Source: Caldifarciminota bacterium
GTDB taxonomy: Bacteria > Hydrothermota > Tepidihabitantia > SM23-42
Direction: 5' to 3'
Assembly (NCBI GenBank): GCA_020343595.1
Contig: CP070802.1
Location: 1,077,431-1,109,870 of the forward strand
Length of the DNA: 32,440 bases
Every line of letters starts with the position of its first letter. Position 1 is the first letter of the stretch. The translations under genes were made by a program, and so were the position numbers. This document shows positions 2,697 to 30,034 of the stretch, in pieces. Under the pieces are notes generated by a model that was not told where the DNA came from, ran no database searches, and was given only the letters and a program-made list of their open reading frames with translations.

Positions 2697-3719
2697 TTAG
2701 GTTTCAGTAAGTCCCAGTGTTGAGTAGTACTTGCGGTAAAAACTGCGGTAGGCACCGGTCTGGGTGTTTTTCAACCACTCACCATTCTTCCGGTACCATC
2801 TCATAGTCTTTTCAAAACCGGATTGAAAAGACACACACGGCTGCCAGCCCAGCTGCCTTTTTATCTTCGAAATCGACAGAGCATACCGACGGTCGTGACC
2901 AGGCCGATCTTTTACATGCTCTATCAGCGCTAGTGGTTTACCTAGAGTCTTCAATATTTGCTTTATTATCTCAATGTTGGCTCGTTCATGCTGTCCGCCG
3001 ACATTGTATATCTCGCCAAGCTTGCCTTTTCTCACAACGAGATCGATAGCCCGGCAGTTATCTTCGACATATATCCAGTCCCTGACCTGCAGGCCATCGC
3101 CGTACACGGGGATCTTCTTACCATTCATCGCATTAAAGATGACGAGTGGTATGAATTTCTCAGGAAACTGGTAGGGTCCGTAGTTATTAGAAGACCGGGT
3201 GATCACCACTGGCAATCCATAGGTGCGGTAATACGCCATGACCAGACCATCGGCTGCCGCCTTGCTTGCAGAATATGGGCTCGAGGGGTTAAGAACAGAG
3301 TCCTCTCTAAACTTACCGCGTGCAATCGAACCATAGACCTCGTCGGTCGATATCTGAACGAACCTCGTTACGCCATAGTGAAGCGCACAGTTCAACAACA
3401 CGCCAACGCCGAGGAAATTTGTCTTAAGAAACGCATCGGGCGAGGTGATGCTGCGGTCAACGTGACTCTCTGCCGCGAAATTGATGACTGCATCGGGTCT
3501 GAATCTTTTGAACACTTTTCTCATCTGCGTGGCATTTGTTATATCTGCTTTAACAAACCCATAATTTCGGTTTTTCTCAAGACCGCTGAGGTTTTCAAGA
3601 TTACCTGCATAGGTCAGCTTATCGATATTTAGTATCTCGTGGCGTGGATATTTTTTTACGAAGAACCTGATGAAATTGGACCCGATAAACCCGCATCCAC
3701 CCGTTATGAGAACTCTCAT
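2697..3719 (-). CDS. rfbB: dTDP-glucose 4,6-dehydratase
   Basis: 340 residues, the normal length. It converts dTDP-D-glucose to dTDP-4-keto-6-deoxyglucose with bound NAD, the second step of dTDP-L-rhamnose synthesis in the cytoplasm. Visible features are the Rossmann motif GGCGFIG at 7-13, NFAAESHVDRS at 80-90, the catalytic TDEVYG at 125-130 and YSASK at 149-153, and the C-terminal substrate segments NNYGPYQFPEK and YNVGG. It is the last gene of the minus-strand rfb block, 27 nt after the RmlC-like gene, and ends at repeat-rich DNA. Confidence 0.97.
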   Translation of the reverse strand: MRVLITGGCGFIGSNFIRFFVKKYPRHEILNIDKLTYAGNLENLSGLEKNRNYGFVKADITNATQMRKVFKRFRPDAVINFAAESHVDRSITSPDAFLKTNFLGVGVLLNCALHYGVTRFVQISTDEVYGSIARGKFREDSVLNPSSPYSASKAAADGLVMAYYRTYGLPVVITRSSNNYGPYQFPEKFIPLVIFNAMNGKKIPVYGDGLQVRDWIYVEDNCRAIDLVVRKGKLGEIYNVGGQHERANIEIIKQILKTLGKPLALIEHVKDRPGHDRRYALSISKIKRQLGWQPCVSFQSGFEKTMRWYRKNGEWLKNTQTGAYRSFYRKYYSTLGLTET

Positions 3720-3746
3720 TGCTGGATTTCTGAACAGATAAAGATT

Positions 3747-4220
3747 CTAACCATCCTTACGGGACCAGTCGTAAGGAATGTCTGAATCGTGGGCAGGTTT
3801 ACGGTACTCATCGGGTTTGTCATAAGCATAAGGTTCTGTTACGATATTTACGATCATCGCTTCGCTACTGCTGATGCATTTGAAACCATGCCACACATAT
3901 TTCGGTATGTGTATGAGAATGTGATTATGCTCGCCGACAAAGAATTCTTTGAGTACTCCGCGGGTCGGGCTATCTTTGCGGTCATCATACAACACGATCT
4001 TTGCCATACCACACAGGACGGTCATGTTGTCATCCTGAAGTTTGTGGCAGTGCCATGCTTTGACAACACCCGGATACGCAGTAGTAACATAAACCTGGCC
4101 GAATTGTGAGAATTCTTTGTCATCGGCGCGGAGTATTTCCATCAACCGGCCACGCTCATCCGGGATCAACTTCAGGCTTCTGACCGAAACCCCGGAGATC
4201 AATTTTTCATTAGCCATCAT
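3747..4220 (-). CDS. rfbC: RmlC-like dTDP-4-dehydrorhamnose 3,5-epimerase family cupin
   Basis: 157 residues, shorter than typical RmlC (about 180). It shows the family's DERGRLMEI near the start, a histidine segment KAWHCHKLQ at 54-62 in the place of the usual RGLHYQ, IPKYVWHGF at 105-113, and a closing DSDIPYDW that matches the E.GI.WND end of RmlC. Its place between rfbA and rfbB supports the 3,5-epimerase step. The divergent active-site segment leaves open a related isomerase acting on another dTDP-4-keto sugar. Two adjacent ATGs are possible starts; AGGAG lies 3 nt before the first (4220) and 6 nt before the second (4217), which may be the real one. Confidence 0.8.
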   Translation of the reverse strand: MMANEKLISGVSVRSLKLIPDERGRLMEILRADDKEFSQFGQVYVTTAYPGVVKAWHCHKLQDDNMTVLCGMAKIVLYDDRKDSPTRGVLKEFFVGEHNHILIHIPKYVWHGFKCISSSEAMIVNIVTEPYAYDKPDEYRKPAHDSDIPYDWSRKDG

Positions 4221-4229
4221 TTGCTCCTA

Positions 4230-5297
4230 TCACTTGATTATCTGAACGTAACTTTGATCACCGAGTATGAATTTATGGGTCCTGGGTGATTCATTTATCT
4301 GGTTTATGACGACATTTCTACCGAGTATAGAGCGGTCGATTCGGTTCTCCAGATTGCGAATCGTTGCACCATCCATTATCACGCTGCATTCTACCTCGGA
4401 ATTCTCAATCGTCACATTCGCACCGATCGAAGAAAATGGACCGACGTACGCCTTTGAGAGTCTTGAATTCTGTCCAATTATTGCCGGTCCCCGGATTATA
4501 CTCTTTTCAATGACAGCGCCCTTTTCTACCACAACGTGTCCGTTCAACGTTGAATCAACTACTTCACCTTTATTATCTGGTTTGATATCCTGCAGGATAA
4601 GCAGGTTGGCTTCTATAATGTCCTCGGGTTTGCCGGTATCCTTCCACCAGCCTTTCACGGTTTGGGATTCCACCCGGTAACCGTTGTCCAGTAGCCATTG
4701 TATTGCATCGGTTATCTCTAATTCGTTGCGCCAAGAAGGTTTTATATGCTCGATCGCCTTATGGATCTCATTGTCAAAGAGATAAATGCCGACCAGCGCG
4801 AGATTGGAAGGTGGTTCTTTCGGCTTCTCGACCAACTTCTTTACATTTCCCTTGCCATCGACCTCGGCAACCCCAAACTCCTGGGGATTATCAACTTCGG
4901 TAAGAAGGATCAATGCATTGGGATGATTCTCTTTGAACTGTTTCACAAGTTCATCCAGACTATCCTTCAGTATATTATCACCCAGATACATCATGAATGG
5001 CTCGTTACCCAGGAATTCGCGAGCGACCTTAATAGCATGAGCAAGGCCAAGAGGAGATTCTTGCGGGATATACTCAATGTTGATATTCCAATTCGCTCCA
5101 TCGCCCACAACGCTCATCACTTCATCTCTGGTATCGCCTACAACTATTCCGATATCCTTAATACCGACTCGCACCAGTGATTCAATTCCATAAAAGATGA
5201 TAGGTTTGTTAGCTATGGGAATGAGCTGCTTAGCGCCTGTATAGGTCAACGGTCTCAAACGTGTGCCAAAACCGCCAGAGAGTATCAATCCTTTCAT
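4230..5297 (-). CDS. rfbA: Glucose-1-phosphate thymidylyltransferase, long form
   Basis: 355 residues. It joins glucose-1-phosphate and dTTP to give dTDP-glucose, the first committed step to dTDP-rhamnose. The nucleotidyltransferase signature GGFGTRLRPLT is at 8-18 with the substrate segment ANKPI at 29-33. A C-terminal left-handed beta-helix (about 245-350, with isoleucine/valine-spaced hexapeptide turns) marks it as the long RmlA type found in archaea and various bacteria, not the 290-residue enterobacterial type. It has its own promoter in the 34-nt gap after rfbD, with a predicted leader of only about 4 nt and no Shine-Dalgarno. Confidence 0.95.
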   Translation of the reverse strand: MKGLILSGGFGTRLRPLTYTGAKQLIPIANKPIIFYGIESLVRVGIKDIGIVVGDTRDEVMSVVGDGANWNINIEYIPQESPLGLAHAIKVAREFLGNEPFMMYLGDNILKDSLDELVKQFKENHPNALILLTEVDNPQEFGVAEVDGKGNVKKLVEKPKEPPSNLALVGIYLFDNEIHKAIEHIKPSWRNELEITDAIQWLLDNGYRVESQTVKGWWKDTGKPEDIIEANLLILQDIKPDNKGEVVDSTLNGHVVVEKGAVIEKSIIRGPAIIGQNSRLSKAYVGPFSSIGANVTIENSEVECSVIMDGATIRNLENRIDRSILGRNVVINQINESPRTHKFILGDQSYVQIIK

Positions 5298-5307
5298 TGT
5301 TGAGTGA

Positions 5308-5335
5308 ATTATAGCAATAACTGACCAAAAATCAA
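5308..5335 (-). promoter_or_regulatory. Internal promoter of rfbA
   Basis: TTGATT (5335-5330), 16 bp, TATAAT (5313-5308), then 10 nt to the ATG of rfbA. The -35 box overlaps the TGA stop of rfbD (5334-5332). The expected start lies about 4 nt before the ATG, giving a nearly leaderless message for rfbA-rfbC-rfbB. Confidence 0.7.
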
Positions 5336-6183
5336 GGTTTTCGAAGCAGGCTCTTGATGAAATCAGTCAGCGCTTCTTCCCATGATTTCATCTGACATGA
5401 GAACAGAAATTCGTAGTTATGCGATGCCAGCGGCGAGAAGCGAGGCCGTTTTGCCAGCAAGTTCAACTCTTCGATCTTGACCGCTCTGATTGTGGTTTTG
5501 AATCTCATTATCTTCTTGGCGCGCAAGACAAAATCCAGCCATGAAGCAATGCCTTTGTTCACGATATGATATACCCCGTAATTTTCAGACTTGATCAACC
5601 GCAGGATTGCATCTGCCAGGTGGTCAATATAAGTCAAAGAAGCGAACTGATCACAGATGACATCGATCGATCCAGGTTTCTTGTCACTGGCAAGAAACTT
5701 TGATATGAACGTCTTGGAATTTTGGCCAAACAACCACGAAGTACGCGCAATGAAGTAGCGCTCGCAGATATCTTTGATATAGCGCTCACCCAAGAGTTTT
5801 GTCCGACCGTATTCACTGATGGGGTGCGGCATGCTGTATTCTGAGTAAGGCTCCTCACTATTTCCGTCAAAGATAAAATTAGTACTTGTATAGAGCATCT
5901 TGGCTCCAATCTTATTGGCGATAATGGCCAAACCCATAGTACTCAGCGCATTTACCTGCAAGGCAAGATTCTGCTCCTGCTCGCAAGTATCGACGTTGCT
6001 TACTGCGGCAAAGTGAAGTATGGCATCCGGACGGTAATCAAGTAATACTTTGTTGGTCGCCCTGAAATCGGTTATATCGAGCTGCTTGATATCGGTTGCC
6101 AGGAATTTGATCTTTTCTTTACGCAGCAGGCGCGTCATCTCCGTGCCCAGGGCTCCTTCCGCACCACTGACGAATACTTTCAT
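5332..6183 (-). CDS. rfbD: dTDP-4-dehydrorhamnose reductase
   Basis: 283 residues from the ATG at 6183. It is an NAD(P)H-dependent short-chain reductase for the last step to dTDP-L-rhamnose. It shows the cofactor loop GAEGALG at 7-13, HFAAVSNVDTCE at about 57-68, TSTNFIFDG at 99-107 and the catalytic YGRTK at 125-129, as expected for RfbD. A GTG two codons upstream is in frame, but the promoter puts the transcription start on the A of the ATG, so the GTG would not be in the message. First gene of the rfb block, divergent from asnA. Confidence 0.93.
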   Translation of the reverse strand: MKVFVSGAEGALGTEMTRLLRKEKIKFLATDIKQLDITDFRATNKVLLDYRPDAILHFAAVSNVDTCEQEQNLALQVNALSTMGLAIIANKIGAKMLYTSTNFIFDGNSEEPYSEYSMPHPISEYGRTKLLGERYIKDICERYFIARTSWLFGQNSKTFISKFLASDKKPGSIDVICDQFASLTYIDHLADAILRLIKSENYGVYHIVNKGIASWLDFVLRAKKIMRFKTTIRAVKIEELNLLAKRPRFSPLASHNYEFLFSCQMKSWEEALTDFIKSLLRKP

Positions 6184-6189
6184 CAGCAC

Positions 6190-11530: not shown

Positions 11531-11926
11531 CTAAATAATGAATTCCAGCTCCGGCTTGGAACTAAGCGTCGCCACGGCTGAGCAGTACTTATCGCGTGAC
11601 AATTCAAAAGATCTGAGTAGATCCTCCCTTTTATAAACACCTTCGCATTTGAACATCAGGGTTATCTTCGTATACTTGTGTGGATGGTTTTCTGCTCGCA
11701 CACCGCTTGCTTCAATTACAAAACTGGATATCTTACCGCCTTTTTTCTGGAGTATACCGACTATGTCCATACCCATACAACCCGCAAGCCCAACCAGAAA
11801 AAGTTGCAGAGGTCTGAAGCCCATGTCAGAGCCCCCAAATTCCTTTTCTGTATCGACAATGATCTTATGGCCATGTTGGTCTTCTGCCTCGAACCGCAAT
11901 CCTTCACACCATGACACTCTTACCAT
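11531..11926 (-). CDS. OsmC/Ohr-family peroxiredoxin-like protein
   Basis: 131 residues. The OsmC fold is shown by RPLQLFLVGLAGCMGMD with a cysteine at 50, and by the second cysteine in KYCSAVATL at 115. In characterised members these two cysteines reduce organic hydroperoxides. A lysine follows the first motif (ILQKKGGKI) as in YhfA/OsmC-like proteins. It is the last gene after trxA and the TlpA-like lipoprotein, 25 nt behind the latter, which fits a thiol/peroxide theme. The start is preceded by GAGGTG. Confidence 0.88.
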   Translation of the reverse strand: MVRVSWCEGLRFEAEDQHGHKIIVDTEKEFGGSDMGFRPLQLFLVGLAGCMGMDIVGILQKKGGKISSFVIEASGVRAENHPHKYTKITLMFKCEGVYKREDLLRSFELSRDKYCSAVATLSSKPELEFII

Positions 11927-11951: not shown

Positions 11952-12449
11952 CTACTCGTTAAGCAGTGAGTCCACAAGCGCATCGAATTGGGATTCAAGC
12001 TCCGGAGCAAAACCAACCTGGGTTTTTCTGATATTTCCTTTCTTGTCCACAAATATCGTCTTGGGGATCCCCTTGACACCGTAAGCTTTGGCAAGTTCAT
12101 CACTACCAACAAAAATAGGGTAGGGAATGTTCATCTGATTGTTGAAATTGACCAGAGCCTGCTCATCGTCCAAGCCAATGCCCAATATTGTGAAACCCCT
12201 TTCATGGTATTTCTCGTATAGTTGTACAAAAGTGGGGATACTATTTCGGCAGGGTGGACACCACGTTGCCCAAAAGTCAATGATCACGACCTGACCTTTG
12301 AGCGCTGACAACGTGTATTCTTCACCATTGAGCGAAACAAGCGTAAAATCGGTCAATTCGGCTTGCCCCGATTTTGATTTGTTCCCCGAACCACAGGCAA
12401 TTGCAAGAATTACCATAATTGACATTATCCTCAGCATTCTTTTAATCAC
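11952..12449 (-). CDS. TlpA/ResA-like thioredoxin lipoprotein
   Basis: 165 residues. The N-terminal hydrophobic segment ends in a lipobox (AIAC, Cys19), so it is probably a lipoprotein facing the periplasm. The thioredoxin-like domain follows with DFWATWCPPC (active site WCPPC at 63-67), the family's typical central insertion (GFTILGIGLDD), and KGIPKTIFVD containing the cis-proline. Such proteins reduce extracytoplasmic disulfides, for example in cytochrome c maturation. The CcdA fusion at 590-2026 would be a natural electron source, though it is not adjacent. It starts 9 nt after trxA. Confidence 0.92.
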   Translation of the reverse strand: MIKRMLRIMSIMVILAIACGSGNKSKSGQAELTDFTLVSLNGEEYTLSALKGQVVIIDFWATWCPPCRNSIPTFVQLYEKYHERGFTILGIGLDDEQALVNFNNQMNIPYPIFVGSDELAKAYGVKGIPKTIFVDKKGNIRKTQVGFAPELESQFDALVDSLLNE

Positions 12450-12458
12450 AAACCCCCC

Positions 12459-12782
12459 TTATTTCGTAATATATTTCTCTATCTTTTTTACTATCTGTTC
12501 CTTTGGCAATGCGCCGATGATCCTTTCAACCTCTTTACCTTTGTCGAAAATGATCATCGTCGGGATATTTTGAATAACATATTCATTCGCTATTTTGATC
12601 TCATTATCGACGTTTATCTTACCAATATTCAACTTGCCATCGTAATCTTTTGAAATTTCATCTAAAATGGGCGCAACCATTGAGCATGGTGGGCACCAAA
12701 TTGCCCAAAAATCAACCAGGTAAGGAAGGGTTGATTTGTCAACTTCCTGGTGGAAGTCATTGTCCGTAAGTTCCTTAACCAT
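12459..12782 (-). CDS. trxA: Thioredoxin
   Basis: 107 residues, standard thioredoxin length with no signal peptide, so cytoplasmic. It keeps LVDFWAIWCPPC with the active site at 29-33 and the cis-proline segment QNIPTMIIFDKG. The active site is WCPPC instead of the classical WCGPC, a change that normally makes the protein more reducing, as in TlpA/ResA proteins. AAGGAGG lies five bases before the ATG. It is followed after 9 nt by the TlpA-like gene and then by OsmC. No clear promoter was found in the 96 nt upstream, so it may be part of the long unit starting at mglB. Confidence 0.95.
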   Translation of the reverse strand: MVKELTDNDFHQEVDKSTLPYLVDFWAIWCPPCSMVAPILDEISKDYDGKLNIGKINVDNEIKIANEYVIQNIPTMIIFDKGKEVERIIGALPKEQIVKKIEKYITK

Positions 12783-12862
12783 ATAAACCTCCTTCTTTAG
12801 TTTAACAAGTGGTTTTCCGCATTTCTCTCGAGATTCGTATTGTTTCTCATCACTCGGATGAA

Positions 12863-12878
12863 TGTTTCACGTGAAACA
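12863..12878. promoter_or_regulatory. parS site (ParB/Spo0J binding site)
   Basis: TGTTTCACGTGAAACA is identical to the 16-bp bacterial parS consensus and sits within a 20-bp perfect palindrome (12861-12880). It lies directly against the stop codon of the barrel-like gene. ParB loads at such sites for chromosome segregation. Sites of this kind usually cluster near the replication origin, so this region is probably origin-proximal. No second copy, parA, parB or dnaA was seen in the window. Confidence 0.92.
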
Positions 12879-13550
12879 TTAGAAACTCTGCTCAAATCCC
12901 AGCTTTATCATGCGATTGAAGTGTTCATCGCCCAGGCTGTTTTCCAGTAAATCTCGCAATGCGAACTCAAAGAACATCTCACCATAGAACATCAAACGCA
13001 GTCCTACATTCAAATATCCACGGTCGTTATCCGTCGGATCATTCAAATTAGCAGCATAATCGACCAAGATGGCACCTGACGTGCCGAATTGAGCCATTAT
13101 TCCTCCAAATATATCAAAACCATCGTCCGACTCAAGGCAGTAATTGCAGCCAATACTTGGCACAATGGTCACACTTGAAGCCCCAAGGGTCTTTCCCAGC
13201 TGAGCGTACAACCCCTTTGATCTAATGTCATACCGTGTATCGTAGTCACCATATCCCTGATTATCAAAACCCAGTAAGAAACACGGATAATAAAGACCTT
13301 CTTCGATTGCCAGTATTCTTATCTGAACGCCGGGCTGATCATAGAACTCAGGATCACCGGCACCGATGAGATTCGAGGCGCCGTAACTGAGACCCACCCC
13401 GAATCTATCCCAGATCCCCACATTGAAAAACCCGAGAAGACCTCCACCAGGGCCAAAACGCATTTCAATATTGAAAACCCCATGCCATGGCTGCTGTGGA
13501 TAGGGCTGGTCAACGTAATACAGGCTGATGAGCATGAAGATTATTGCCAT
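12879..13550 (-). CDS. Predicted outer-membrane beta-barrel protein
   Basis: 223 residues. A short hydrophobic N-terminus (about 1-12) may be a signal peptide. The rest alternates hydrophobic and polar residues with many glycines and aromatics, and the final residue is phenylalanine (GFEQSF), typical of small outer-membrane barrels. It has no named motif. AGGAGG stands just before the ATG, and it begins 20 nt after dnaE, so it is probably co-transcribed with it. The function is unknown; alternatives are a secreted periplasmic protein of the same general build. Confidence 0.6.
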   Translation of the reverse strand: MAIIFMLISLYYVDQPYPQQPWHGVFNIEMRFGPGGGLLGFFNVGIWDRFGVGLSYGASNLIGAGDPEFYDQPGVQIRILAIEEGLYYPCFLLGFDNQGYGDYDTRYDIRSKGLYAQLGKTLGASSVTIVPSIGCNYCLESDDGFDIFGGIMAQFGTSGAILVDYAANLNDPTDNDRGYLNVGLRLMFYGEMFFEFALRDLLENSLGDEHFNRMIKLGFEQSF

Positions 13551-16957: not shown

Positions 16958-17242
16958 CTAATTACCTTGTGCTGGGTCACCCAACGGCAAATTCAGTGGA
17001 TTCGCACAATATATCTCCTTACACCGCGGGCACAGGGTGAATTTATACTCCTTGAAGACCTCTTCGTTCAATAGTTCTTCAGGATATGACTTCACCTTTT
17101 CAAATTCCTCCTTGAGATCGATCTTATCTTTCTTAATATTGATCACTCCATCAAAGCCTGCGGATACTTTTATCAGAAGACTGTAATACAAATCACCTGG
17201 TCCGATTATGCGACGGCATTTGCTGCACACTTGCGACGACAC
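16958..17242 (-). CDS. Small zinc-ribbon-like protein
   Basis: 94 residues from a GTG at 17242; AGGA stands seven bases before it. An upstream TTG (17248) would leave only one base between AGGA and the start, so I prefer the GTG. Two CxxC pairs (CSKC near the start, CPRC near residue 73) with about 65 residues between them suggest a split zinc ribbon, and a charged helical stretch (KDKIDLKEEFEKVKSYPEELL) lies between them. It may bind zinc and perhaps nucleic acid or a partner protein, but no specific family is recognised. It sits tightly between mglA and dnaE in one run of genes. Confidence 0.7.
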   Translation of the reverse strand: MSSQVCSKCRRIIGPGDLYYSLLIKVSAGFDGVINIKKDKIDLKEEFEKVKSYPEELLNEEVFKEYKFTLCPRCKEIYCANPLNLPLGDPAQGN

Positions 17243-17276
17243 AATCAATTCCTAAACAATCCGGGGCTTGTGCATT

Positions 17277-17858
17277 CTAAGCCAATGTTTTGAGAACTTG
17301 CTTACAGATTTCCTTGAGGGTTTCAAAAACGCCAATACCTTGAGTGGCGACAGCTTCAAAGTAGCGATATTCATTTCTTGGGTTCAATATCCTCTGCAGC
17401 TCCTCGACCGAAGTAATGTTTGGCAAATCTCTCTTGTTGTACTGCATGACCAGCGGTACTCTTTCGAGCAAGAGATTATGGGCTCTTAGATTATCTTTCA
17501 GATTATCGAACGATTCGATGTTCTCATCAAAACGCTCGATCTGTGAATCCGCAACAAAGACAATACCATCCACACCCTTCAAGATGAGTTTACGAGAAGC
17601 ATTGTAGAAAACCTGGCCGGGTACCGTGTAAAGATGAAACCTCGTATTGAACCCCTTTATCGTACCGAGATCAACCGGGAGAAAGTCAAAGAACAACGTG
17701 CGATCGAGTTCTGTCGCCAGACTGATAAGTTTCCCCTTAATCGAAGGGTTCAATTTTGAATAAACGTACTTGATATTCGTCGTCTTACCACCCAACCCAG
17801 GGCCGTAGAAGACTATCTTTGAATTTATTTCCCTTGATGCATAGTTAATTAGTGCCAT
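17277..17858 (-). CDS. mglA: MglA-type Ras-like GTPase
   Basis: 193 residues, the usual size. It shows the P-loop GPGLGGKTT (19-27), the MglA-specific switch II region TVPGQ (78-82) in place of DTAGQ, and NKRD (141-144) for guanine recognition. MglA is a cytoplasmic switch that sets cell polarity in motile bacteria such as Myxococcus and also occurs in many non-gliding bacteria. The partner mglB lies 48 nt upstream. No Shine-Dalgarno is visible. A TAGAAT three bases before the ATG is too close to act like the other leaderless promoters here. Confidence 0.93.
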   Translation of the reverse strand: MALINYASREINSKIVFYGPGLGGKTTNIKYVYSKLNPSIKGKLISLATELDRTLFFDFLPVDLGTIKGFNTRFHLYTVPGQVFYNASRKLILKGVDGIVFVADSQIERFDENIESFDNLKDNLRAHNLLLERVPLVMQYNKRDLPNITSVEELQRILNPRNEYRYFEAVATQGIGVFETLKEICKQVLKTLA

Positions 17859-17906
17859 AGTATTCTAGTTAGCAAATTTCTCTATCGAACAGATCCCACA
17901 CCGCAG

Positions 17907-18401
17907 TTATATTCCGAAGAGCCGGTCAATTTCTTCTTCGGCCATCCTCGTGAAATCATCATCGATCTCCTTACTGGGCTCAGTCTCCTTCTCGACCTTA
18001 CTGAAAAGACCGTGGAAGGTCTTCTCCAGTTCGGAAACTGTACCCCTCGTCTTTACACGGACCAGACCGAGGGTTGTACGGTTATCGAAGATCACCGCAA
18101 GGATGATCCGACCCGCAACCAGGCTCACGTACAGATTTTCCTTTTCACCCTGGTGAAAGAGCGTGGAGAATTCTTTTTCACCAATAAGGATGGCAAGCTG
18201 GCTGGTCGCGGCAAAGTCGGCCGCCGAAAGCGTGGCGAACGATGACGTGTCCATCTTGCGGGTATCACCGGTTGAGGTGATCAGTTGACCCTCGCGATCG
18301 ATGAGCAATATCGTCTTGGCATGGGTGCCCTGCAGGAGTCGGTTGAGCGCGTCGTTGATCGACCAGAAGTCCTGCTCAAAGATATTTATTTGATCCTGCA
18401 T
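17907..18401 (-). CDS. mglB: MglB-like roadblock/LC7 GTPase-activating partner
   Basis: 164 residues. A roadblock/LC7 domain spans about residues 10-125, recognised from INDALNRLLQG, AKTILLIDREGQLITSTGD and the later strands LYVSLVAGRIILAVIFD. A charged C-terminal tail (KVEKETEPSKEIDDDFTRMAEEEIDRL) follows. MglB homodimers stimulate GTP hydrolysis by MglA and mark the opposite pole in Myxococcus. Its place directly before mglA supports the call. It is the first gene of a co-directional run reaching to 11531 and begins exactly at the predicted transcription start of a consensus promoter. Confidence 0.85.
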   Translation of the reverse strand: MQDQINIFEQDFWSINDALNRLLQGTHAKTILLIDREGQLITSTGDTRKMDTSSFATLSAADFAATSQLAILIGEKEFSTLFHQGEKENLYVSLVAGRIILAVIFDNRTTLGLVRVKTRGTVSELEKTFHGLFSKVEKETEPSKEIDDDFTRMAEEEIDRLFGI

Positions 18402-18526: not shown

Positions 18527-19609
18527 TTACTGATTCCATTTGTTCACAGCACACATATTCTTTAAAATCGTCAACAGTTTAGGTGCATTTACAGCTAATG
18601 AATATTTTTCTTCAACTGTAGTGCGGCCCCTCGCACCAAATGTATCACGAATGCTTTTGTTCTCAATCAATCTGCTAAGTTTATGGTTCCAATCATTTGG
18701 AGATTTAGCTAAGTAGCCATTGTAGCCATCAACTATTATCTCGGCGTTGACACCTACTGACGATGCAATTACCGGTTTGCCAACGGCCATATACTGAATT
18801 ATCTTATAACCGCACTTTCCACGTGTCCACTTATTATCCGGCAACGGCATTATTCCTATATCAAAGCTATGTAGATCACTCAACTCTTCCATCAAAGACC
18901 ATTGTTTAAAAATCTTTGGCAGTCCTAAATCGAGATCTTCATTGGAAACAATTTTGATAGCAAACTCATATCTTTTCGAGAGATTAAGTAATACGTTCTT
19001 CAAACTTAACAGATAAGGAACTGTGCTTCTTGACCCTATCCAACCTACTACTAATTTCTGTGTACCAACATTGTCGTCACCCCGTGGTAGGTAGTAATTT
19101 GTGTCAATGCATGTGGGGATTATGTGAACATTACTATTAAAATCCTTTGCGAATGCCGCGAGATGCTCATTACCTACTATCACACAGCTCGAGACGCCAA
19201 GTATTGTCTTAACCTTAGCCGGATTTCTTAATAATGGTAAGAGTGATGGTTTCGTAGGATTCATAAGGTAAATCGCATCGTCGAAATCGTAAACAAGGGG
19301 CAACTTACTAGCTAGACGCCTCTCGACAACTGTGGTGAAGAAAGGAAAGGCCTCCCGATGCACAAATACCAAGTCATAATCCGAAGCCGATCTGAGATCG
19401 CGCACCCGTGAAGTGCACCCCTGAATTGTATGGCGTATTTTGTCTAAAACGTTACCTGCCGCATATAATATACCGTAAAACTCAGACGATACAAAACTAC
19501 TTGCTACACATTGCACACCATGTTCCGCCAAATAAGGGAAAAACTGAAATACACGCTGACGAGTGCTTGCAATCTCAACCGGGTATGGTATTACGAACAA
19601 CACCTTCAT
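18527..19609 (-). CDS. Glycosyltransferase, GT4-like
   Basis: 360 residues of GT-B type. The N-terminal half opens with MKVLFVIPYP and contains YDFDDAIYLM, common in this family. The C-terminal half has VVGWIGSRS for the nucleotide-sugar site and GKCGYKIIQYMAVGKPVIAS, followed by DGYNGYL, which is the usual donor-binding region of GT4 enzymes. It probably adds a sugar to the lipid-linked polysaccharide unit on the cytoplasmic side. Its ATG overlaps the TGA of the preceding GT2 gene (ATGA, 19606-19609), so translation is coupled. Donor and linkage cannot be told. Confidence 0.88.
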   Translation of the reverse strand: MKVLFVIPYPVEIASTRQRVFQFFPYLAEHGVQCVASSFVSSEFYGILYAAGNVLDKIRHTIQGCTSRVRDLRSASDYDLVFVHREAFPFFTTVVERRLASKLPLVYDFDDAIYLMNPTKPSLLPLLRNPAKVKTILGVSSCVIVGNEHLAAFAKDFNSNVHIIPTCIDTNYYLPRGDDNVGTQKLVVGWIGSRSTVPYLLSLKNVLLNLSKRYEFAIKIVSNEDLDLGLPKIFKQWSLMEELSDLHSFDIGIMPLPDNKWTRGKCGYKIIQYMAVGKPVIASSVGVNAEIIVDGYNGYLAKSPNDWNHKLSRLIENKSIRDTFGARGRTTVEEKYSLAVNAPKLLTILKNMCAVNKWNQ

Positions 19610-20556
19610 GATTCAGATAATCTACCCGTAGAAAACCCTATCAGCACACGAAGGTAGCCCTTTATGCGGAGTGTGCATTCCTTCCTCCTTTCTGGCCTCA
19701 ACAAACCCATCATAGAATAAACAACACATCGGTATACCATTTCGTACATAGTCAGCAAATAGATTACTACTTGCCGGATAAAACAATGGTGCTTTTTGAA
19801 GAAAAGAAATTTGCTTCTGTAAATGTGAAAAATCATTCTGGGCATATTTCTTGAAAAGCTTTTACCCGAAAAATGCACAACGTGTGCGCCAGGGACAAAC
19901 CAAATACCCCAACCTCTTTTTTTGATTCTATAGCACAGATCCACTTCTTCGTAATACATGTAGAATTGTTCGTCAAAGACAATTCCACTATCAAGGGCAT
20001 CCTTCCGCACGAGCAAGCATGCTCCTTGGGGCTGATCAATCTCACAGTCGTTTTCGTAGTCAGAGATACTGCTGAAACCGAAAATCGGATGATTGGGTAA
20101 ATATCTTGGAGCCCCCACTGCTTTTACGACTTCCTGCCATATCGTTGGAAATTTCCGGCACGATGCCTGATTCGAATGGCTTTCATCAACAAGCAATGGC
20201 GCAACAATTGCAACATTCGGATGTGAAGAAATGAAAAGGTAGAGGGTATTAAGTGCATCACCAAGGAGCTCAGTATCTGGATTCAACAAAAGAAAATATT
20301 CCCCTGCAGCAATTCTTGCCCCCTGGTTGTTTGCGGCGGCAAACCCAATATTCCTTCTATTCAGAATCAAGCGCACATCCTTGAATTTGCTGCGTAGCAT
20401 CTCTACGCTTCCGTCCCTGGAGTCATTGTCCACAACAATAACCTCTAACTTACCAACAAACGGACGTGCATAGATAGACGAAAGGCATATATTGACAAAA
20501 TCCCTTGTGTTGAAATTCACAATAATCACCGATAAATCAGCAATATTAGGTACCAT
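19606..20556 (-). CDS. Glycosyltransferase family 2, rhamnosyltransferase-like
   Basis: 316 residues. A GT-A fold opens with SVIIVNFNTRDF, then VIVVDNDSRDGSVEML, NRRNIGFAAANNQG and the DxD-type LLLNPDTELLGDAL. Later come QGACLLVRKDAL and YYEEVDLCYRIKKRGW, typical of WbbL-like rhamnosyltransferases. A hydrophobic C-terminal stretch (VVIYLLTMYEMVYRCVVYSMMGLL) suggests membrane association. Given the rfb genes in this window a dTDP-rhamnose donor is plausible, but that is inference. It overlaps the upstream gene by 11 nt. Confidence 0.9.
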   Translation of the reverse strand: MVPNIADLSVIIVNFNTRDFVNICLSSIYARPFVGKLEVIVVDNDSRDGSVEMLRSKFKDVRLILNRRNIGFAAANNQGARIAAGEYFLLLNPDTELLGDALNTLYLFISSHPNVAIVAPLLVDESHSNQASCRKFPTIWQEVVKAVGAPRYLPNHPIFGFSSISDYENDCEIDQPQGACLLVRKDALDSGIVFDEQFYMYYEEVDLCYRIKKRGWGIWFVPGAHVVHFSGKSFSRNMPRMIFHIYRSKFLFFKKHHCFIRQVVIYLLTMYEMVYRCVVYSMMGLLRPERRKECTLRIKGYLRVLIGFSTGRLSES

Positions 20557-21913
20557 TTAACACTTTCTCATAGAGTTGACTTATCTCAGCTGCATAGGTC
20601 CTAACACTCTTCCAGGGGTTCATCCTTCGTTGTAGATGTAATACTAACTTCGGTTCTTCAATAAACTTATTCATGGCCTTAGTAAGTGCCCCAGTGTTAC
20701 CTGGAGGAAAAAGGTATCCATTTCTTCCTTCTTTCAGCCATTCTGAGATACCTCCTATATTGCTCGCTATGACGGGAATCCGGGCATTAAGATATTCCAA
20801 GCCTACTATCCCAAAGATCTCCTCCCAAATTGAAGGCACGATTCCTACATCAATCTCCTCTAGCTTATCGTTTACTTCTTCCGGCACATAACTGCCACGG
20901 TACTCAATATTGAGTCCACAGTTGAGAAAAGGCCCCATTATGTTACGGTTACCGTCGCCATACACAAGCAACCTACACTTACCCTGGTCGAGATGGGAGA
21001 AGGCATCCAACAATACATTGATGCCCTTACGCGAGTGCAGCCTGCCACGATATCCAAAAGTAATAGGCAACTTTCCTGTATGATCGGGTTTTGCCGCTAT
21101 TTCTGAAAGGCCCTCGGCTGAGAGAGAAATGACATTTACTCTCCGCACGTCAATGCCATAACCGTGGATTAATTTACCGACACTCCTGGAAGTAGTATGA
21201 ATCGCACTACAACTATTCAACATATCAATAAAGTAATTACGGCGATTCAAATAAGCTTTTGCAGAAAAATCAACCGGTTTGCAATCGCTGTCTCGTCGTC
21301 GGCCCATGGCTTTTTTCAAACCACCGAGTCTCGATACAAGAGGGAAAAGATATTCATATGGTATTGACCCCTTCACCCTGTGCATAAATGGAATCCCGCC
21401 TGATTCATATCTTGATAAACAAATCAAGCACTTAGCCCCGTTGGCGATGTCCGAGCATAGTTCTTTGTCGTCAAACAACAAATCGCTCTTCGGACATAAA
21501 TCCCAGTAATTATGAAAAGTTTTCACTACAGGTATACCCCTTCGTCTGATCAGTGCGATAATCGATGCACACTGCATACGCATATCACTTATATGTACAA
21601 TATCAGGGCGTACACTATTCACAACCTTCTCAGTGAGGGTTTCAACAGCAACATCCGAACAATGGCTCTCTGGGTTGGTGCGATAGCAGTAAGGATCATA
21701 CAAATTCGGTGAATTGACTAATTCAATAGCGGTCAAACCTTCTATTTTTCTTGACCTTAGGTAAGGCTTATTCCTTAAATCATATCTACAAGCAGTGAAG
21801 TAGCTGAGTTGATGCCCCATTGCCTGGAGGTTTTTCATTAGGCCAATCTGATTTCTGACCATTCCGCCGCTCCAATACGGGCGATAGCCAAAGCTTATGT
21901 AGAGGATTCGCAT
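20546..21913 (-). CDS. Glycosyltransferase family 4
   Basis: 455 residues from the ATG at 21913 (MRILYISFGYRPYWSGG). An in-frame GTG seven codons earlier is possible, but the N-terminus from the ATG is the classical GT4 start. The acceptor half has a cysteine-rich segment (CSDIANGAKCLIC) after DLCPKSDL, seen in a subset of GT4 proteins. The donor half shows FGYRGRLHSRKGINVLLDAF, VPSIWEEIFGIVGLEYLNARIPVIAS and GGISEWLKEGRNGYLF, which include the E-x7-E motif. First gene of the minus-strand glycosyltransferase operon, with a predicted leader of about 70 nt and a weak ribosome site. Confidence 0.9.
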   Translation of the reverse strand: MRILYISFGYRPYWSGGMVRNQIGLMKNLQAMGHQLSYFTACRYDLRNKPYLRSRKIEGLTAIELVNSPNLYDPYCYRTNPESHCSDVAVETLTEKVVNSVRPDIVHISDMRMQCASIIALIRRRGIPVVKTFHNYWDLCPKSDLLFDDKELCSDIANGAKCLICLSRYESGGIPFMHRVKGSIPYEYLFPLVSRLGGLKKAMGRRRDSDCKPVDFSAKAYLNRRNYFIDMLNSCSAIHTTSRSVGKLIHGYGIDVRRVNVISLSAEGLSEIAAKPDHTGKLPITFGYRGRLHSRKGINVLLDAFSHLDQGKCRLLVYGDGNRNIMGPFLNCGLNIEYRGSYVPEEVNDKLEEIDVGIVPSIWEEIFGIVGLEYLNARIPVIASNIGGISEWLKEGRNGYLFPPGNTGALTKAMNKFIEEPKLVLHLQRRMNPWKSVRTYAAEISQLYEKVLNGT

Positions 21914-21990
21914 TCTTGTTCTCTCGCTCAGCACTCGCAGCCCCCGGTTACATTGAAGTAATCATCGCCGGAGCTTCGAGCACAGCATTT

Positions 21991-22018
21991 ATTATATCAA
22001 ACACAGTGATATAGTCAA
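21991..22018 (-). promoter_or_regulatory. Promoter of the minus-strand glycosyltransferase operon
   Basis: TTGACT (22018-22013), 16 bp, TATAAT (21996-21991). Unlike its divergent partner, this unit has a leader of roughly 70 nt. An ATG two bases after the -10 box lies upstream of any plausible +1 and leads only to a short frame. Confidence 0.82.
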
Positions 22019-22029
22019 TATTTTGTCCG

Positions 22030-22057
22030 TTGACTTACTTGTGTTTTTTATTATAAT
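22030..22057 (+). promoter_or_regulatory. Leaderless promoter of the wzz-wzy-wzx operon
   Basis: TTGACT (22030-22035), 16 bp, TATAAT (22052-22057), TACTCA, ATG (22064). Its -35 box is only 11 bp from the -35 box of the divergent glycosyltransferase promoter. Confidence 0.88.
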
Positions 22058-22063
22058 TACTCA

Positions 22064-23317
22064 ATGAAGAAAAATCAATTCTCCGAATACCTGCGTGTCA
22101 TAATTAAGTGGCGCAGATTCATTATCAGGAATGTATTCATCGTTGCGGTAATCGCGATCATAATCAGCCTGCTTCTGGTCAAGAAATACAGAGCGACGGC
22201 TACCGTATTGCCACCAAGCGCTGAACAGCAAACAATGCTGGGGCTGATGCCCGGATTGATGTCAGGAGGAGGTATACCGGGAGGTCTTTCCAGTATGCTC
22301 ACGGGTGTAGTTTCAGGATTTGCAACGCCATCTGATCTGTACGCTGCAATAATGCAGAGTAGCAGGATCATGCGCGTGCTAATCACGAAATACAACCTTA
22401 AAAAGGAGTTCAAGGCAAAAACAACGCACGACGCATTTTTGGCACTAGAAGATATCACACAAATCCAAGTTTCTCCGGAAGGTATAATATCGGTGAGTGT
22501 CACCTACAAAAACAAGCAGCTGGCAACCGATATGGCTAATTCTTACGTCGAAGAGCTTGACAAATTCAATCAAATGACTGCTATGACCGTCGGTAAGAAG
22601 TTTCGGATTTTCGTAGAGCAAAGATTGCTTGAAACTAGTGACTCTCTGAGAAAGGCAGAAGAAGAACTCAGGGATTTCCAAGAAGGACATCGTACGGTAG
22701 CGCTTGATACCGAGATGCAAGCGGCGATCGAAACAATAGCCCAGCTGAAAAGCCAAATAATCATGTATGAAGTTCAAAAGGGTGCTTGGTCTGCAGCAGG
22801 ACAGGTTGATAATCCTTACCTTGCCCAGATAAATCGCGAACTGAATGCACTCAAGAAACAACTGTCCAAGATGGAGTCGGGTACCCCGGCAGATGAAAAG
22901 CCCGGATTCGGCGCTGGATTCTCAGTCCCTCTGGAAAAATTACCTGAAGTAACCTTGGAGTTCGCTCGAAAGTACCGCGAGGTGAAAATTCAAGAAGCCA
23001 TATTTGAATTAATGACACAGCAGTATGAACAAGCTAAGATTATGGAGTTAAAAGACACTCCGACAATTCAGTTTCTCGATAGAGCCGGGGTGCCGGAAAA
23101 AAGGGTTTTTCCAAAGCGGGCACTGATAGTCGTAATAACGTTTATAATAAGCTTCATTGTCAACGTTTTTCTTGTTTTCTCACTTGAATATATAAATGAT
23201 ATTAAGGTAAATCCGAAGGCACATAAAACTGCAATTGATTTTACCGACAATTTGCATAGAGATTACCGAGACATTAAGTCCTTCATTAAAAAGACGCTGA
23301 GGTTCAAAAAACATTAA
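22064..23317 (+). CDS. Wzz-family polysaccharide chain-length determinant
   Basis: 417 residues. It has two membrane segments (about 22-44 and 346-370) around a long periplasmic, partly coiled-coil domain (about 175-330, e.g. LRKAEEELRDFQEG). Just before the second segment is a proline/arginine motif (AGVPEKRVFPKRA) usual for Wzz/PCP proteins. A glycine/methionine-rich loop follows the first segment. No kinase domain is attached, so it belongs to the PCP-1/3-like class that sets chain length together with a Wzy polymerase. Translation is predicted to begin at the mRNA's first base. Next gene 28 nt on. Confidence 0.9.
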   Translation: MKKNQFSEYLRVIIKWRRFIIRNVFIVAVIAIIISLLLVKKYRATATVLPPSAEQQTMLGLMPGLMSGGGIPGGLSSMLTGVVSGFATPSDLYAAIMQSSRIMRVLITKYNLKKEFKAKTTHDAFLALEDITQIQVSPEGIISVSVTYKNKQLATDMANSYVEELDKFNQMTAMTVGKKFRIFVEQRLLETSDSLRKAEEELRDFQEGHRTVALDTEMQAAIETIAQLKSQIIMYEVQKGAWSAAGQVDNPYLAQINRELNALKKQLSKMESGTPADEKPGFGAGFSVPLEKLPEVTLEFARKYREVKIQEAIFELMTQQYEQAKIMELKDTPTIQFLDRAGVPEKRVFPKRALIVVITFIISFIVNVFLVFSLEYINDIKVNPKAHKTAIDFTDNLHRDYRDIKSFIKKTLRFKKH

Positions 23318-23345
23318 CATTTCAAATCAGGCTGCTAACCAAAGC

Positions 23346-24737
23346 GTGATCAATATTCCAAAAAAATATGAATGGGCATTAACAACAGTCGGAATTGCGA
23401 TACCAATAATATTCCTCATTCTATATGCTAATGATCTTCTATTCCTGACCCTCGGCGCAATATTCCTGATCGCAATGTTACTTCTGACTGCTTTCTCGGT
23501 AGAAAGAGTATTTCTGTTACTTGCTTTTTATGTTGCGGCTTTTGAAGTAAGGGGATACCTTGTCTACTTTCCCGGAATGACAATCTGGTACTCATGGAAG
23601 ATATCATATCCATTATTTCTATTATTAATCGCTTACTGGGCAATTCATCTATTCAGAAGTCGCGAACGGTTTGTGTTTAATCAAATGGATAAAGCGGTCA
23701 TGGTTTTTCTTATAATTATGATGGCCGGAGCAATTCATGGCTTCCTACGAGGTTACGATAGAAAGCTCGTATTGTATGATTTCCTGCAGGCACCTTTTTT
23801 CCTTGGATACTTCATATTTGTCTACTCACCCTTAAAGGAAAAGGTACGCCTTTATTATGACTTCCTTCTTTTTACTGCGGTCTTTGTTGGCCTTCAGTTC
23901 ATCTATGCTGTAACACGTTTTCAAGCGGGCTTCTTTCTTACAAGAATCGTGTCGGAGCATATTCACATTGCACAATTTGCCATACCTTATGTTGTAGCGA
24001 CCCTTATATATTCAAAGAACACAATGCGTAAGGTTCTTTTTGCACCTGCACTTCCGATTCTACTGTTAGGGGTTGTTTTCTGCCAGCAGCGCTCACTCTA
24101 TGCTAGCGTTGGTCTTAGCATCGTGCTACTAATTGCCCTCTTTGTCTACTCAAAACGAGCATATATAAAAGCACATGCCGCTCAGACCACAAGGTATCTA
24201 ACAATAATAGCGATCTTCCTGGCCTTGGTTGTGATTGTCGCTCAAAGCTTCAGCCAGGGAAAATTCCTGAACACGATACTATCGAGATTATTCATATTCC
24301 TGAACATAGGTAGACTAAATCAAGACATATCATGGCAAATCAGATGGCTAGAAATAAACGATGCACTGCAAGATTTGAATAAATTCTGGCTATTCGGGCA
24401 GGGATTTGGTGCGTCCTTTATTACACGCTGCCGCTACATGTTGGCGATCGTGGTTGATCAATCCTATGTTTATATGATCTGGAAAACAGGTCTTGTGGGG
24501 CTCTTATCTCTCCTCGCAATGTACTACATGCTATTTAAACGTGGGCTATCGACCCTGTTAAAGAAAATCACTCCCGAGGAACGGATACAACTGCTCACTG
24601 CCATCATCAATACCGCGGGAATGATGCTGATAGCTTTTGCTAACGTAAGCATAGCACACTTCCGGCTTATGTTTGTCTGGGCAGGATTATTTGGCGCAAC
24701 TGAGGTTATTGCGCGCAGGTATGACAAAATACATTAA
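23346..24737 (+). CDS. O-antigen ligase/polymerase-like membrane protein (Wzy/WaaL)
   Basis: 463 residues with about ten to twelve hydrophobic segments and a larger polar loop near residues 310-355 (NIGRLNQDISWQIRWLEI...FGQGFGASF), the pattern of the Wzy_C/O-antigen ligase domain. Its position between Wzz-like and Wzx-like genes favours a polymerase, but the sequence alone cannot separate polymerase from ligase. It starts with GTG at 23346; no strong Shine-Dalgarno is seen. Its end overlaps the flippase start by 17 nt. Confidence 0.82.
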   Translation: MINIPKKYEWALTTVGIAIPIIFLILYANDLLFLTLGAIFLIAMLLLTAFSVERVFLLLAFYVAAFEVRGYLVYFPGMTIWYSWKISYPLFLLLIAYWAIHLFRSRERFVFNQMDKAVMVFLIIMMAGAIHGFLRGYDRKLVLYDFLQAPFFLGYFIFVYSPLKEKVRLYYDFLLFTAVFVGLQFIYAVTRFQAGFFLTRIVSEHIHIAQFAIPYVVATLIYSKNTMRKVLFAPALPILLLGVVFCQQRSLYASVGLSIVLLIALFVYSKRAYIKAHAAQTTRYLTIIAIFLALVVIVAQSFSQGKFLNTILSRLFIFLNIGRLNQDISWQIRWLEINDALQDLNKFWLFGQGFGASFITRCRYMLAIVVDQSYVYMIWKTGLVGLLSLLAMYYMLFKRGLSTLLKKITPEERIQLLTAIINTAGMMLIAFANVSIAHFRLMFVWAGLFGATEVIARRYDKIH

Positions 24738-26028
24738 AGGCGTAACGCTAACGTACGCAACACAAATTACGATCCTGGTAATGTCCTTCATCACAAGTGT
24801 CATCATCGTTAGGACTCTCGGCGCTTCAGGAAAAGGAGTAGTTGCTCTATTGCAGAACTATTTCCTGATACTTGTTGTCATTTTCATCCTCGGCATGAGC
24901 GAAGGTAACATCTATTTTCTTAGCAGTCGTAAATATAAACACAAAGAGGTTTTTGCTAATGTACTTGTACACACAATCTTAATATCGGCAATCTTCCTCG
25001 TGGCTTCGATCATATTTAAAGATTGGATCTTGAGTACCTTTCTGAGGAATATCAAAGCAGAGCATTATAACCTGGCTCTGTGGATATTCCCGGCGTTCTT
25101 TTTGTTCCTACATACAACAACAATGTTGTTAGGACACCACAATATCGTAGGGTTCAATGTGGTAACAACGGCAAGATTCACATTCATTATGGTTTTCATG
25201 GCTGTATTAATCCCAAAACTGCAAATAATTGGGGCGGTGATTGCTACCGTGGCCGGTTTTCTGCTTGCGGATATCATTGGGGTCATTTTGCTAACTCGAT
25301 ATGGGAGCCCTGCGATTGGAATTAATAAAGGCTTTGCGCGAAACGCTTTTATATTCGGCGCGAAGTCTGAAGTAGGTCTTATATTAGCCCAGCTTGACAG
25401 GAGATTTGATATTTTCATCATAAACCTGTTCCTTGCTCCTACGCAGGTTGGATTCTACGCAGTTGCAGTAGCTATAGCCGAGTTTCCATGGTATGTATCA
25501 AATGCAATTGCCACGGTGCTCTTTCCGGAGATAGCAGCAATGGACAAACAGAGAGCCTATCAATTCACATCCTACGTGTGCCGCAATACACTATTTATCG
25601 TTTTCATATTAAGTATCGTGCTATTCGTTGTTGGTGGCTTCATCCTGCAATTTGTTTTCGGCCCAGAATTCTCACAGTCGCTCAACCCCTTGCGTATTCT
25701 TATGCCGGGTATAGTCATTCTCAGTGTTAACAAAGTAATCTGCGCAGGTTTTTCTGGCACGGGGAGACCTGAGTATGGCACGCTAACAGCTGTTTTCTCC
25801 GCCGCAGCAACAATTACGCTTGATTTCATGCTAATACCGCGCATGGGCATCGAGGGAGCAGCAATTGCGTCCACGGTTGCCTATACTATCTCCGCAACAA
25901 CAGGAATTCTTCTCTTTAGTAGAACTGCGAATCTTCCACTAAAAGAGTTTTTGATCATTACCTCCGAAGATATTAAGCGATATCCAGAATTTTACAGAAA
26001 AGTGGTTGCGAGGTTCCGGAATGCGTAA
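24721..26028 (+). CDS. Wzx-like polysaccharide flippase (MOP superfamily)
   Basis: 435 residues from the ATG at 24721. An upstream TTG at 24673 would add 16 residues lying wholly inside the wzy-like gene and is unlikely. The protein has twelve to fourteen hydrophobic segments. It begins with the family's usual ITILVMSFITSVIIVRTLGASGKG and has NLFLAPTQVGFYAVAVAIAEF in the middle, as in RfbX/Wzx proteins. It should flip lipid-linked repeat units to the periplasmic face. It overlaps both neighbours. Confidence 0.92.
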   Translation: MTKYIKGVTLTYATQITILVMSFITSVIIVRTLGASGKGVVALLQNYFLILVVIFILGMSEGNIYFLSSRKYKHKEVFANVLVHTILISAIFLVASIIFKDWILSTFLRNIKAEHYNLALWIFPAFFLFLHTTTMLLGHHNIVGFNVVTTARFTFIMVFMAVLIPKLQIIGAVIATVAGFLLADIIGVILLTRYGSPAIGINKGFARNAFIFGAKSEVGLILAQLDRRFDIFIINLFLAPTQVGFYAVAVAIAEFPWYVSNAIATVLFPEIAAMDKQRAYQFTSYVCRNTLFIVFILSIVLFVVGGFILQFVFGPEFSQSLNPLRILMPGIVILSVNKVICAGFSGTGRPEYGTLTAVFSAAATITLDFMLIPRMGIEGAAIASTVAYTISATTGILLFSRTANLPLKEFLIITSEDIKRYPEFYRKVVARFRNA

Positions 26029-27064
26029 GAAATTACTGCTACTTTGTTCTGAGGGTTTTCCAGGGTCATTCAAAGTCATAACCAATTTGAAGGGCGTTCT
26101 GGATGGTATAGCGGACATTCATATACTGCCGATCGAACAGCTCTTCAGCTTGAAACCATCCATCCCTAATATCCGGATCAAGCGCCGCCTGCAAAAGATA
26201 CAAACAGAGCTGAGATGGATGGACATCAAAATGCTCGAGCGCTATGCTAATAATATACTATTTACGGCTTGGGGACCACCTTACGATGTCGTACTCAGCA
26301 AGCTCAATAGAATCGGCGTAACGCCATCTCTAATCATGTGCAGCACTCCGGGGCAGTCTGAATTATCTCGTCACGAACTCAAAGATTACCATAACCTTTT
26401 CAACTATTTCAGACAAGGCAAATTGAAATATTGGCTTCTTAACAAACGCCTCTATGACTCCCTTGCTGGCGTAACAGACCATGCCATCTACTTCCCCCAT
26501 ACCATCAACCTCGGACAATTCGCAAACGTGGCACCAACGGAATTATCTGGCATAAATGTGGATCTGTTCTGTACAACGAGACTGGGAAAGAATATCCTTA
26601 ACCAGGTTCTCGCTTTTAGGGTTAGTGGTGTTAACGGAACACTACATCTGAATTTCAAGAACGACCAACTCGGATCAATCATCAGTGACATCGGCGCAAA
26701 TGTCCTTTACCATAGATGGATACCTGAAGCAGAGTACTACAACCTTGTTGCTGCAATGGACTTGTCATTACAGGCTACCTTCACTGAGAGTTTCAATTAT
26801 GCGGTCGCCGAAAGGATGTGTTTGGGAATACCAGTAATCACGTCTTATGATATCTATCTTACCGCTTGCGATACCTTCCTCGCGAAATACTTATGCGTTC
26901 AAGCGCTTGACACACCATCGGAGATAGGACGTATGATAAAGAAAATCATCGGGGACGCCAAATTGAGAGCATCATTGGCAGAAAGATGTCACGCTGTTAT
27001 CAGGCGGATTGCAGAGAAAAACAACAAAGAGGCTGTCGACTTTATTGCTGGTTTTCTAGAATAA
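26021..27064 (+). CDS. Glycosyltransferase, divergent GT4-like
   Basis: 347 residues from ATG 26021, which overlaps the wzx-like stop (ATGCGTAA) and has GAGG seven bases upstream; the TTG at 26006 is a poorer choice. The N-terminal half is unlike common families. The C-terminal half has VLYHRWIPEAEYYNLVAAMD and TFTESFNYAVAERMCLGIPVI, the donor-side E-x7-E region of GT4 enzymes, and ends with the usual helical tail. It is the last gene of the plus-strand operon and its end overlaps the convergent GT2 gene by 23 nt. Confidence 0.8.
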   Translation: MRKKLLLLCSEGFPGSFKVITNLKGVLDGIADIHILPIEQLFSLKPSIPNIRIKRRLQKIQTELRWMDIKMLERYANNILFTAWGPPYDVVLSKLNRIGVTPSLIMCSTPGQSELSRHELKDYHNLFNYFRQGKLKYWLLNKRLYDSLAGVTDHAIYFPHTINLGQFANVAPTELSGINVDLFCTTRLGKNILNQVLAFRVSGVNGTLHLNFKNDQLGSIISDIGANVLYHRWIPEAEYYNLVAAMDLSLQATFTESFNYAVAERMCLGIPVITSYDIYLTACDTFLAKYLCVQALDTPSEIGRMIKKIIGDAKLRASLAERCHAVIRRIAEKNNKEAVDFIAGFLE

Positions 27065-27902
27065 TTCGTCGGGCTATATCGTTTTTTGCGCTCAGATTCC
27101 TGAGCAAGCCGATTCGATATTTCAAGAAAAAATGTTTAATGGCAAGCGCATGGCGTATTGAAACGAGCGTCCATGTTTTCTGTTTCGTCATCCGTCTGGG
27201 TGCATGCACAACGCATATTTCTGGCACATAATAAACTTGCCATCGCCTCATCCATAAACGTAAGCAGAAGTCGATATCCTCAGGACCGTAGAATATCTTA
27301 TCATCAAGTAAGCCAACGGCATCCAGGGCCTTCCGTCTTATGAACTGACAAGCGCCTATTACATAGTCGACGGGCGCCGCTGTTTTGTGATCCCAATCAC
27401 GCATCAGATGCGCATCAAGATGAAACTTGTTATGTGCATTGACGAGCTCAGGAAAGCGGTTCAGAGCAAATGACAACGGGGTGGGAAATCTTTTGCAACT
27501 GGGAATACGCCTTCCCGATTCATCTATGAGGCGAGGACCGCAAAGACCGACAGTGGGGTTCATGCTCAAGAATGCAATGAACTTCTCAATACTACCGGGC
27601 CCCAAATAAGCATCGTCATCGACTATTAAAAGAAAATCACCGCGGCTTGATCTTAATCCCTGATTTCTCGCTGGCGCGACACCCCTATTCCTTCCATTCC
27701 TTATCAATTTCGCACCGGGATGACTTTCCCTGATCATTTCTGCAGTACCGTCATTCGACCCATTGTCCACAATAACTAATTCCACGTCAAAATACGAGCT
27801 CTTTTTTAACGAAGATAAACACCTTTTCAACATTGCCTTTGCATTCCACGTAATCACAACTATCGAGACGAGTGGTTTAGAGGTTTTGGTGTAAGTTGAC
27901 AC
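27042..27902 (-). CDS. Glycosyltransferase family 2
   Basis: 286 residues from GTG 27902. GT-A motifs run SIVVITWNAKAMLKRCL, LVIVDNGSNDGTAEMI, RNRGVAPARNQGL, the metal-binding LLIVDDDAYLG, GACQFIRRKALDAVG and YGPEDIDFCLRLWMRRW. This is close to rhamnosyl-type and other O-antigen GT2 enzymes, and no C-terminal membrane segment is obvious. The GTG is supported by its place 5 nt after a TATAAT box with no Shine-Dalgarno. It forms a single-gene unit divergent from the glycosidase-like gene. Confidence 0.88.
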   Translation of the reverse strand: MSTYTKTSKPLVSIVVITWNAKAMLKRCLSSLKKSSYFDVELVIVDNGSNDGTAEMIRESHPGAKLIRNGRNRGVAPARNQGLRSSRGDFLLIVDDDAYLGPGSIEKFIAFLSMNPTVGLCGPRLIDESGRRIPSCKRFPTPLSFALNRFPELVNAHNKFHLDAHLMRDWDHKTAAPVDYVIGACQFIRRKALDAVGLLDDKIFYGPEDIDFCLRLWMRRWQVYYVPEICVVHAPRRMTKQKTWTLVSIRHALAIKHFFLKYRIGLLRNLSAKNDIARRIILENQQ

Positions 27903-27907
27903 GCGCC

Positions 27908-27935
27908 ATTATACCTCACCAACCTATCTTGTCAA
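27908..27935 (-). promoter_or_regulatory. Leaderless promoter of the GT2 gene
   Basis: TTGACA (27935-27930), 16 bp, TATAAT (27913-27908), GGCGC, GTG (27902). It shows the arrangement can also serve a GTG start. Confidence 0.85.
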
Positions 27936-27956
27936 TGCAATAATAGGGCGTGTTAC

Positions 27957-27985
27957 TTGACACCATGAACCAATGGAACTATACT
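27957..27985 (+). promoter_or_regulatory. Leaderless promoter of the glycosidase-like gene
   Basis: TTGACA (27957-27962), 17 bp, TATACT (27980-27985), GATTCA, ATG (27992). Together with the adjacent minus-strand promoter it forms a divergent pair with -35 boxes 21 bp apart. Confidence 0.78.
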
Positions 27986-27991
27986 GATTCA

Positions 27992-29974: not shown

Positions 29975-30034
29975 TAATTATTCAGCTTTGATATAGGCAA
30001 CAGTCCGCCGGTCAAAACACCCTACCGTTTCCAA

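Follow-up and report, generated by a model that had tools for sequence, protein, structure and literature searches.

The locus raises two questions: whether the short palindrome between a thioredoxin gene and a barrel-like gene is the chromosomal centromere (parS) of this bacterium, and whether it marks the neighbourhood of the replication origin. We examined both in the window (the whole analysed stretch of 32,440 nucleotides), in the 2.37-Mb genome it belongs to, and in 60 relatives. The initial annotation had described a 16-mer identical to the bacterial parS consensus within a 20-bp perfect palindrome, and the sequence bears this out. The palindrome is AATGTTTCACGTGAAACATT, its symmetry being broken at the next outward pair (g at 12860, a at 12881), and its core, TGTTTCACGTGAAACA, matches the consensus TGTTNCACGTGAAACA at all 16 positions. 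The annotation had also held a chance exact match to be very unlikely; from base composition, the expected number of exact copies is 1.0e-5 for the window and 7.4e-4 for the whole genome. No second parS-like site with up to three mismatches was found in the whole window, while shuffled sequence averages 0.10 such sites.

A search for further copies, as had been proposed, returned one exact 16-mer genome-wide, and not copies scattered evenly along the chromosome. The imperfect matches elsewhere in the genome are one site with a single mismatch (810234) and one with two mismatches (493196). We considered the former as a second parS and rejected it, as it lies inside a small membrane-protein gene and is found at the same place in genome G004, which points to a coding coincidence. 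No other site with at most one mismatch occurs outside coding DNA in the genome. At the same threshold the site is present in 53 of the 61 genomes (our own and the 60 relatives), and a control with the reversed pattern matches one of them, G011.

The site occupies a fixed address in two families, f1 and its sister f2. In 21 genomes of these families the gene order, with minor gaps in a few, is Roadblock, MglA-like, small protein, dnaE, barrel gene, parS, trxA, tlpA and osmC (Table 1). The barrel gene adjoins parS in all 23 f1/f2 genomes that have the locus, including G013, where the site carries one mismatch, and G021. In the 21 genomes that were aligned, parS starts 0–6 bp past the barrel-gene stop codon, and 18 bases (A, the 16-mer and T) are invariant, while the flanks cannot be aligned outside the genus. 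Since the relatives were recruited by a search with the 16-mer, the invariance of the core is partly built in, the shared address is not. Four f1 genomes (G002, G011, G019 and G022) are without the site. Loss of parS was considered for them and rejected: the barrel gene is missing from them as well and they are only 53–79% complete, so that they do not demonstrate a loss.

Table 1. Position of parS and the genes of the conserved block in the window
Feature	Position	Strand	Remarks
OsmC-like protein	11531..11926	-	PF02566, E 1e-12; block member
TlpA/AhpC-TSA type thioredoxin-like protein	11952..12449	-	PF00578, E 4.8e-28; block member
Thioredoxin (trxA), on the other side of parS	12459..12782	-	PF00085, E 1.6e-28; conserved neighbour
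parS	12861..12880	.	palindrome with core at 12863-12878; sole exact copy in the genome; 18 bp invariant in 21 aligned genomes
Barrel gene, 223 aa	12879..13550	-	TAA stop directly abuts the parS core; no Pfam match
dnaE (DNA polymerase III alpha), 1119 aa	13571..16930	-	block member
Conserved 96-aa protein	16958..17248	-	no Pfam match; block member
MglA-like small GTPase	17277..17858	-	Pfam Arf, E 2.7e-7; block member
Roadblock/LC7 protein	17907..18401	-	PF03259, E 1.6e-11; block member

The product of the barrel gene looks, from its sequence, like a putative outer-membrane-type beta-barrel. DnaE is 84–92% identical to its four named closest relatives, which are metagenome-assembled genomes of candidate division WOR-3. 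The MglA-like GTPase and Roadblock pair (17277-18401), kept near dnaE and parS throughout the order, resembles cell-polarity modules. The conserved block is flanked by genes read from the sequence as dTDP-rhamnose synthesis genes (2697-6189) and by an exopolysaccharide/glycosyltransferase cluster (18527-30000). A tRNA-Lys(ttt) lies at 2106-2178 on the minus strand, and the 98-aa open reading frame that overlaps it (2023-2319) is probably no gene.

A parS sequence implies a ParAB segregation system, as the initial annotation had indicated, and a ParA–ParB operon is indeed present in the genome. There is one ParB-family match (TIGR00180, E 1.3e-51); parA (AAA_31, E 3.1e-60) lies directly upstream of parB, and the two reading frames overlap. 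All three ParB domains (N-terminal, helix-turn-helix and C-terminal dimerisation) are present, the sequence shows the motifs GERR and ENLQR, and the nearest solved structures are Spo0J/ParB proteins. R173 and G201 (Caulobacter numbering) are invariant in ParB proteins that bind parS, whereas Noc carries Q173 and R201 (Jalal and colleagues, PMC7383237). The protein described here reads R/A/T/G at positions 173/179/184/201, which places it in the parS-specific RXXG class, and both R and G are found in all eight ParB proteins of the class that could be read by motif search. Noc is paralogous to ParB and likewise has a 16-bp palindrome (NBS), related to parS. However, the NBS sequence differs from the site described here, and the single ParB-family match does not carry the Noc residues Q173/K179/K184/R201. 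SMC, above its family cut-off, and DnaA are also encoded in the genome. Judged by sequence, the ParABS-SMC machinery is complete. Just 3' of parB (L004:2450-2857, plus strand) lies a gene for a 135-aa protein that resembles the Roadblock/LC7 protein of the window by BLAST only, without a Pfam match. A link between parAB and Roadblock was considered and rejected: such a gene follows parB in six genomes of our own genus but not in other genera.

By analogy with the ParABS scheme established in other systems (PMC7333895, PMC8367383), ParB, which is encoded on another contig, would attach to the palindrome in dimeric form, take up CTP, close into a clamp and then slide over the adjoining dnaE/trx DNA. 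ParA would then pull the ParB–parS complex and so segregate the chromosome, and SMC would be loaded at parS.

The second question, that of the origin, depends on how far the assembly can be trusted. What is presented as one 2.37-Mb "contig" consists of separate contigs with runs of 100 N between them, and such runs were seen at many of the places sampled. The window extends exactly from one such run (1077331-1077430) to another (1109871-1109970), so that it is one whole real contig. The sampled skew changes sign many times across the genome, as expected of a scrambled order. Runs of 100 N also occur in the single-contig genomes G003, G005, G010 and G012, and gene order across their joins is unreliable. 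Because contigs were joined in this way, genome-wide skew and long-range distances are unusable in our own genome and in relatives built similarly. We therefore discarded the distance of about 0.8 Mb between parS and dnaA that the coordinates of our own genome (G000) would give (parS at 1.09, parB at 1.79 and dnaA at 1.91 Mb).

Real contigs of the relatives were used instead. In families f4, f6, f7 and f9, parS lies 1.5–7.5 kb from dnaA in all 24 genomes with both on the same contig; in two f4 genomes the two are on different contigs. Variant parS sequences beside dnaA were also seen in other families of the class (L086 in G037 and L101 in G029), with TGTTTCATGTGAAACA occurring twice in f7 and TGTTCCACGTGGAACA in f5. 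In the sister family f2 the distance grows to 24.7 and 26.4 kb, and one of its genomes (G025) has its cumulative skew minimum at dnaA, with parS 25 kb off. In family f1, no real contig carries the site together with parAB or dnaA; parS and dnaA are on separate ones in all ten genomes concerned. Beside dnaA, two f1 genomes, G004 and G015, show a skew minimum and a cluster of DnaA boxes, and in G015 there is no skew minimum at parS. The dnaA contig of G004 is 155 kb long and without parS, so that, counted from the contig ends, parS must lie about 57 kb or more from dnaA; the corresponding bound in G015 is at least about 47 kb. Contig C8 of G015 also shows a strong reversal of cumulative GC skew, with a maximum at 125 kb, 97 kb from parS, which may be a terminus or a local inversion. 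A dif-like site was looked for at this maximum and not found, and similar strand-balanced skew switches occur in other contigs too.

The expectation that this segment is probably near the origin is thus not supported. The window contains no dnaA, parA or parB, and the origins of the relatives are at dnaA, with parS 25–26 kb (f2) or at least about 47–57 kb (f1) away, which contradicts a position of parS immediately beside oriC. The proposed use of the site as an anchor for ordering contigs would be misleading if it were taken as a mark of oriC. Origin proximity in a broad sense is another matter: in Pseudomonas aeruginosa, parS is functional in a zone of about 650 kb around oriC (PMC5098823), so that an ordinary origin-domain site is the default expectation, and a position inside the working zone of model species (roughly 600 kb) is plausible here.

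We set the displacement against a DnaA tree. The displaced families f1 and f2 form one clade with 99/99 support, nested among families in which parS is linked to dnaA, so that one move suffices. The most economical account is therefore that, before the two families diverged, parS moved a single time from its place next to dnaA into the gap between the barrel gene and trxA, and was then kept there. Family f3 is the sister of f1 and f2 in the same tree and has parS and dnaA on different contigs, which leaves the exact node of the move unsure; it may be one node older than the f1/f2 split.

Taken together, we read the site as the single chromosomal parS, i.e., the centromere, belonging to a ParABS-SMC system of canonical type in a WOR-3 bacterium, relocated once and then fixed, and assign this reading a probability of about 0.93. 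A stronger version, in which the sole centromere of one WOR-3 order is permanently uncoupled from both oriC and parAB and lies far along the replichore or outside the origin domain, seems to us unlikely. If it were true, with the centromere locked beside dnaE and the MglA/Roadblock module, segregation would start at a non-origin locus.

The site might also be a genuine parS that is only a relic or a secondary copy, the working centromere being an unrecognised sequence near dnaA. A canonical parS is expected near oriC, yet oriC here is at dnaA, where there is no parS sequence, and this lends the idea some appeal. However, the genome offers no other candidate at one mismatch or fewer outside coding DNA, 18 bases have stayed invariant over two families while their flanks diverged fully, which argues for a maintained function, and ParB has retained its parS-type residues. 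We consider a relic very improbable. Still a little less credit is due to the proposal that the palindrome has nothing to do with ParB and serves trxA as an operator or the barrel gene as a terminator. A site conserved between a stop codon and trxA would suit such a role, but its core has the universal parS sequence, other families of the class carry this sequence in a quite different gene context (beside dnaA), and the spacing of the site to the trx start differs between species. Moreover, a terminator- or promoter-like site was looked for and none was found, and the ParB of this genome belongs by its residues to the parS-binding class. Chance occurrence can be set aside altogether, given the expectations of 1e-5 per window and 7e-4 per genome and, above all, the identical place of the site in 23 genomes.

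The centromere reading agrees with chromosomal parS/ParABS systems as known (PMC7022226, PMC7333895) in the 16-mer, the palindrome, the ParA–ParB operon, SMC and the presence of one to few copies. It differs from a typical chromosomal parS in lying away from oriC/dnaA and parAB, at an address between the barrel gene and trxA that is fixed throughout the order. Xanthomonas campestris (PMC7333895) likewise has one parS per chromosome; it belongs to a different phylum, and the distance from oriC in our sister family f2 is 25–26 kb. Displaced parS sites of P. aeruginosa and Caulobacter can function at distances of tens to hundreds of kb from oriC (PMC5098823, PMC5815017). There, however, the displacement was engineered, while in WOR-3 it is natural and extends across the lineage. 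Among the papers listed, our literature search returned no report of a natural, lineage-wide relocation of a single chromosomal parS, although a search of this kind is weak evidence of novelty. The element itself is canonical and ordinary; what is modestly new is that a single centromere has been displaced naturally and throughout a lineage.

For the biology of the group, the sequences suggest canonical ParABS with a single centromere in a candidate phylum of which no member has been cultured. In practical terms, parS is unfit as an origin marker in these genomes. The lineage provides a natural case in which a centromere moved once from oriC and kept one address over two families, and thereby bears on what fixes the position of parS.
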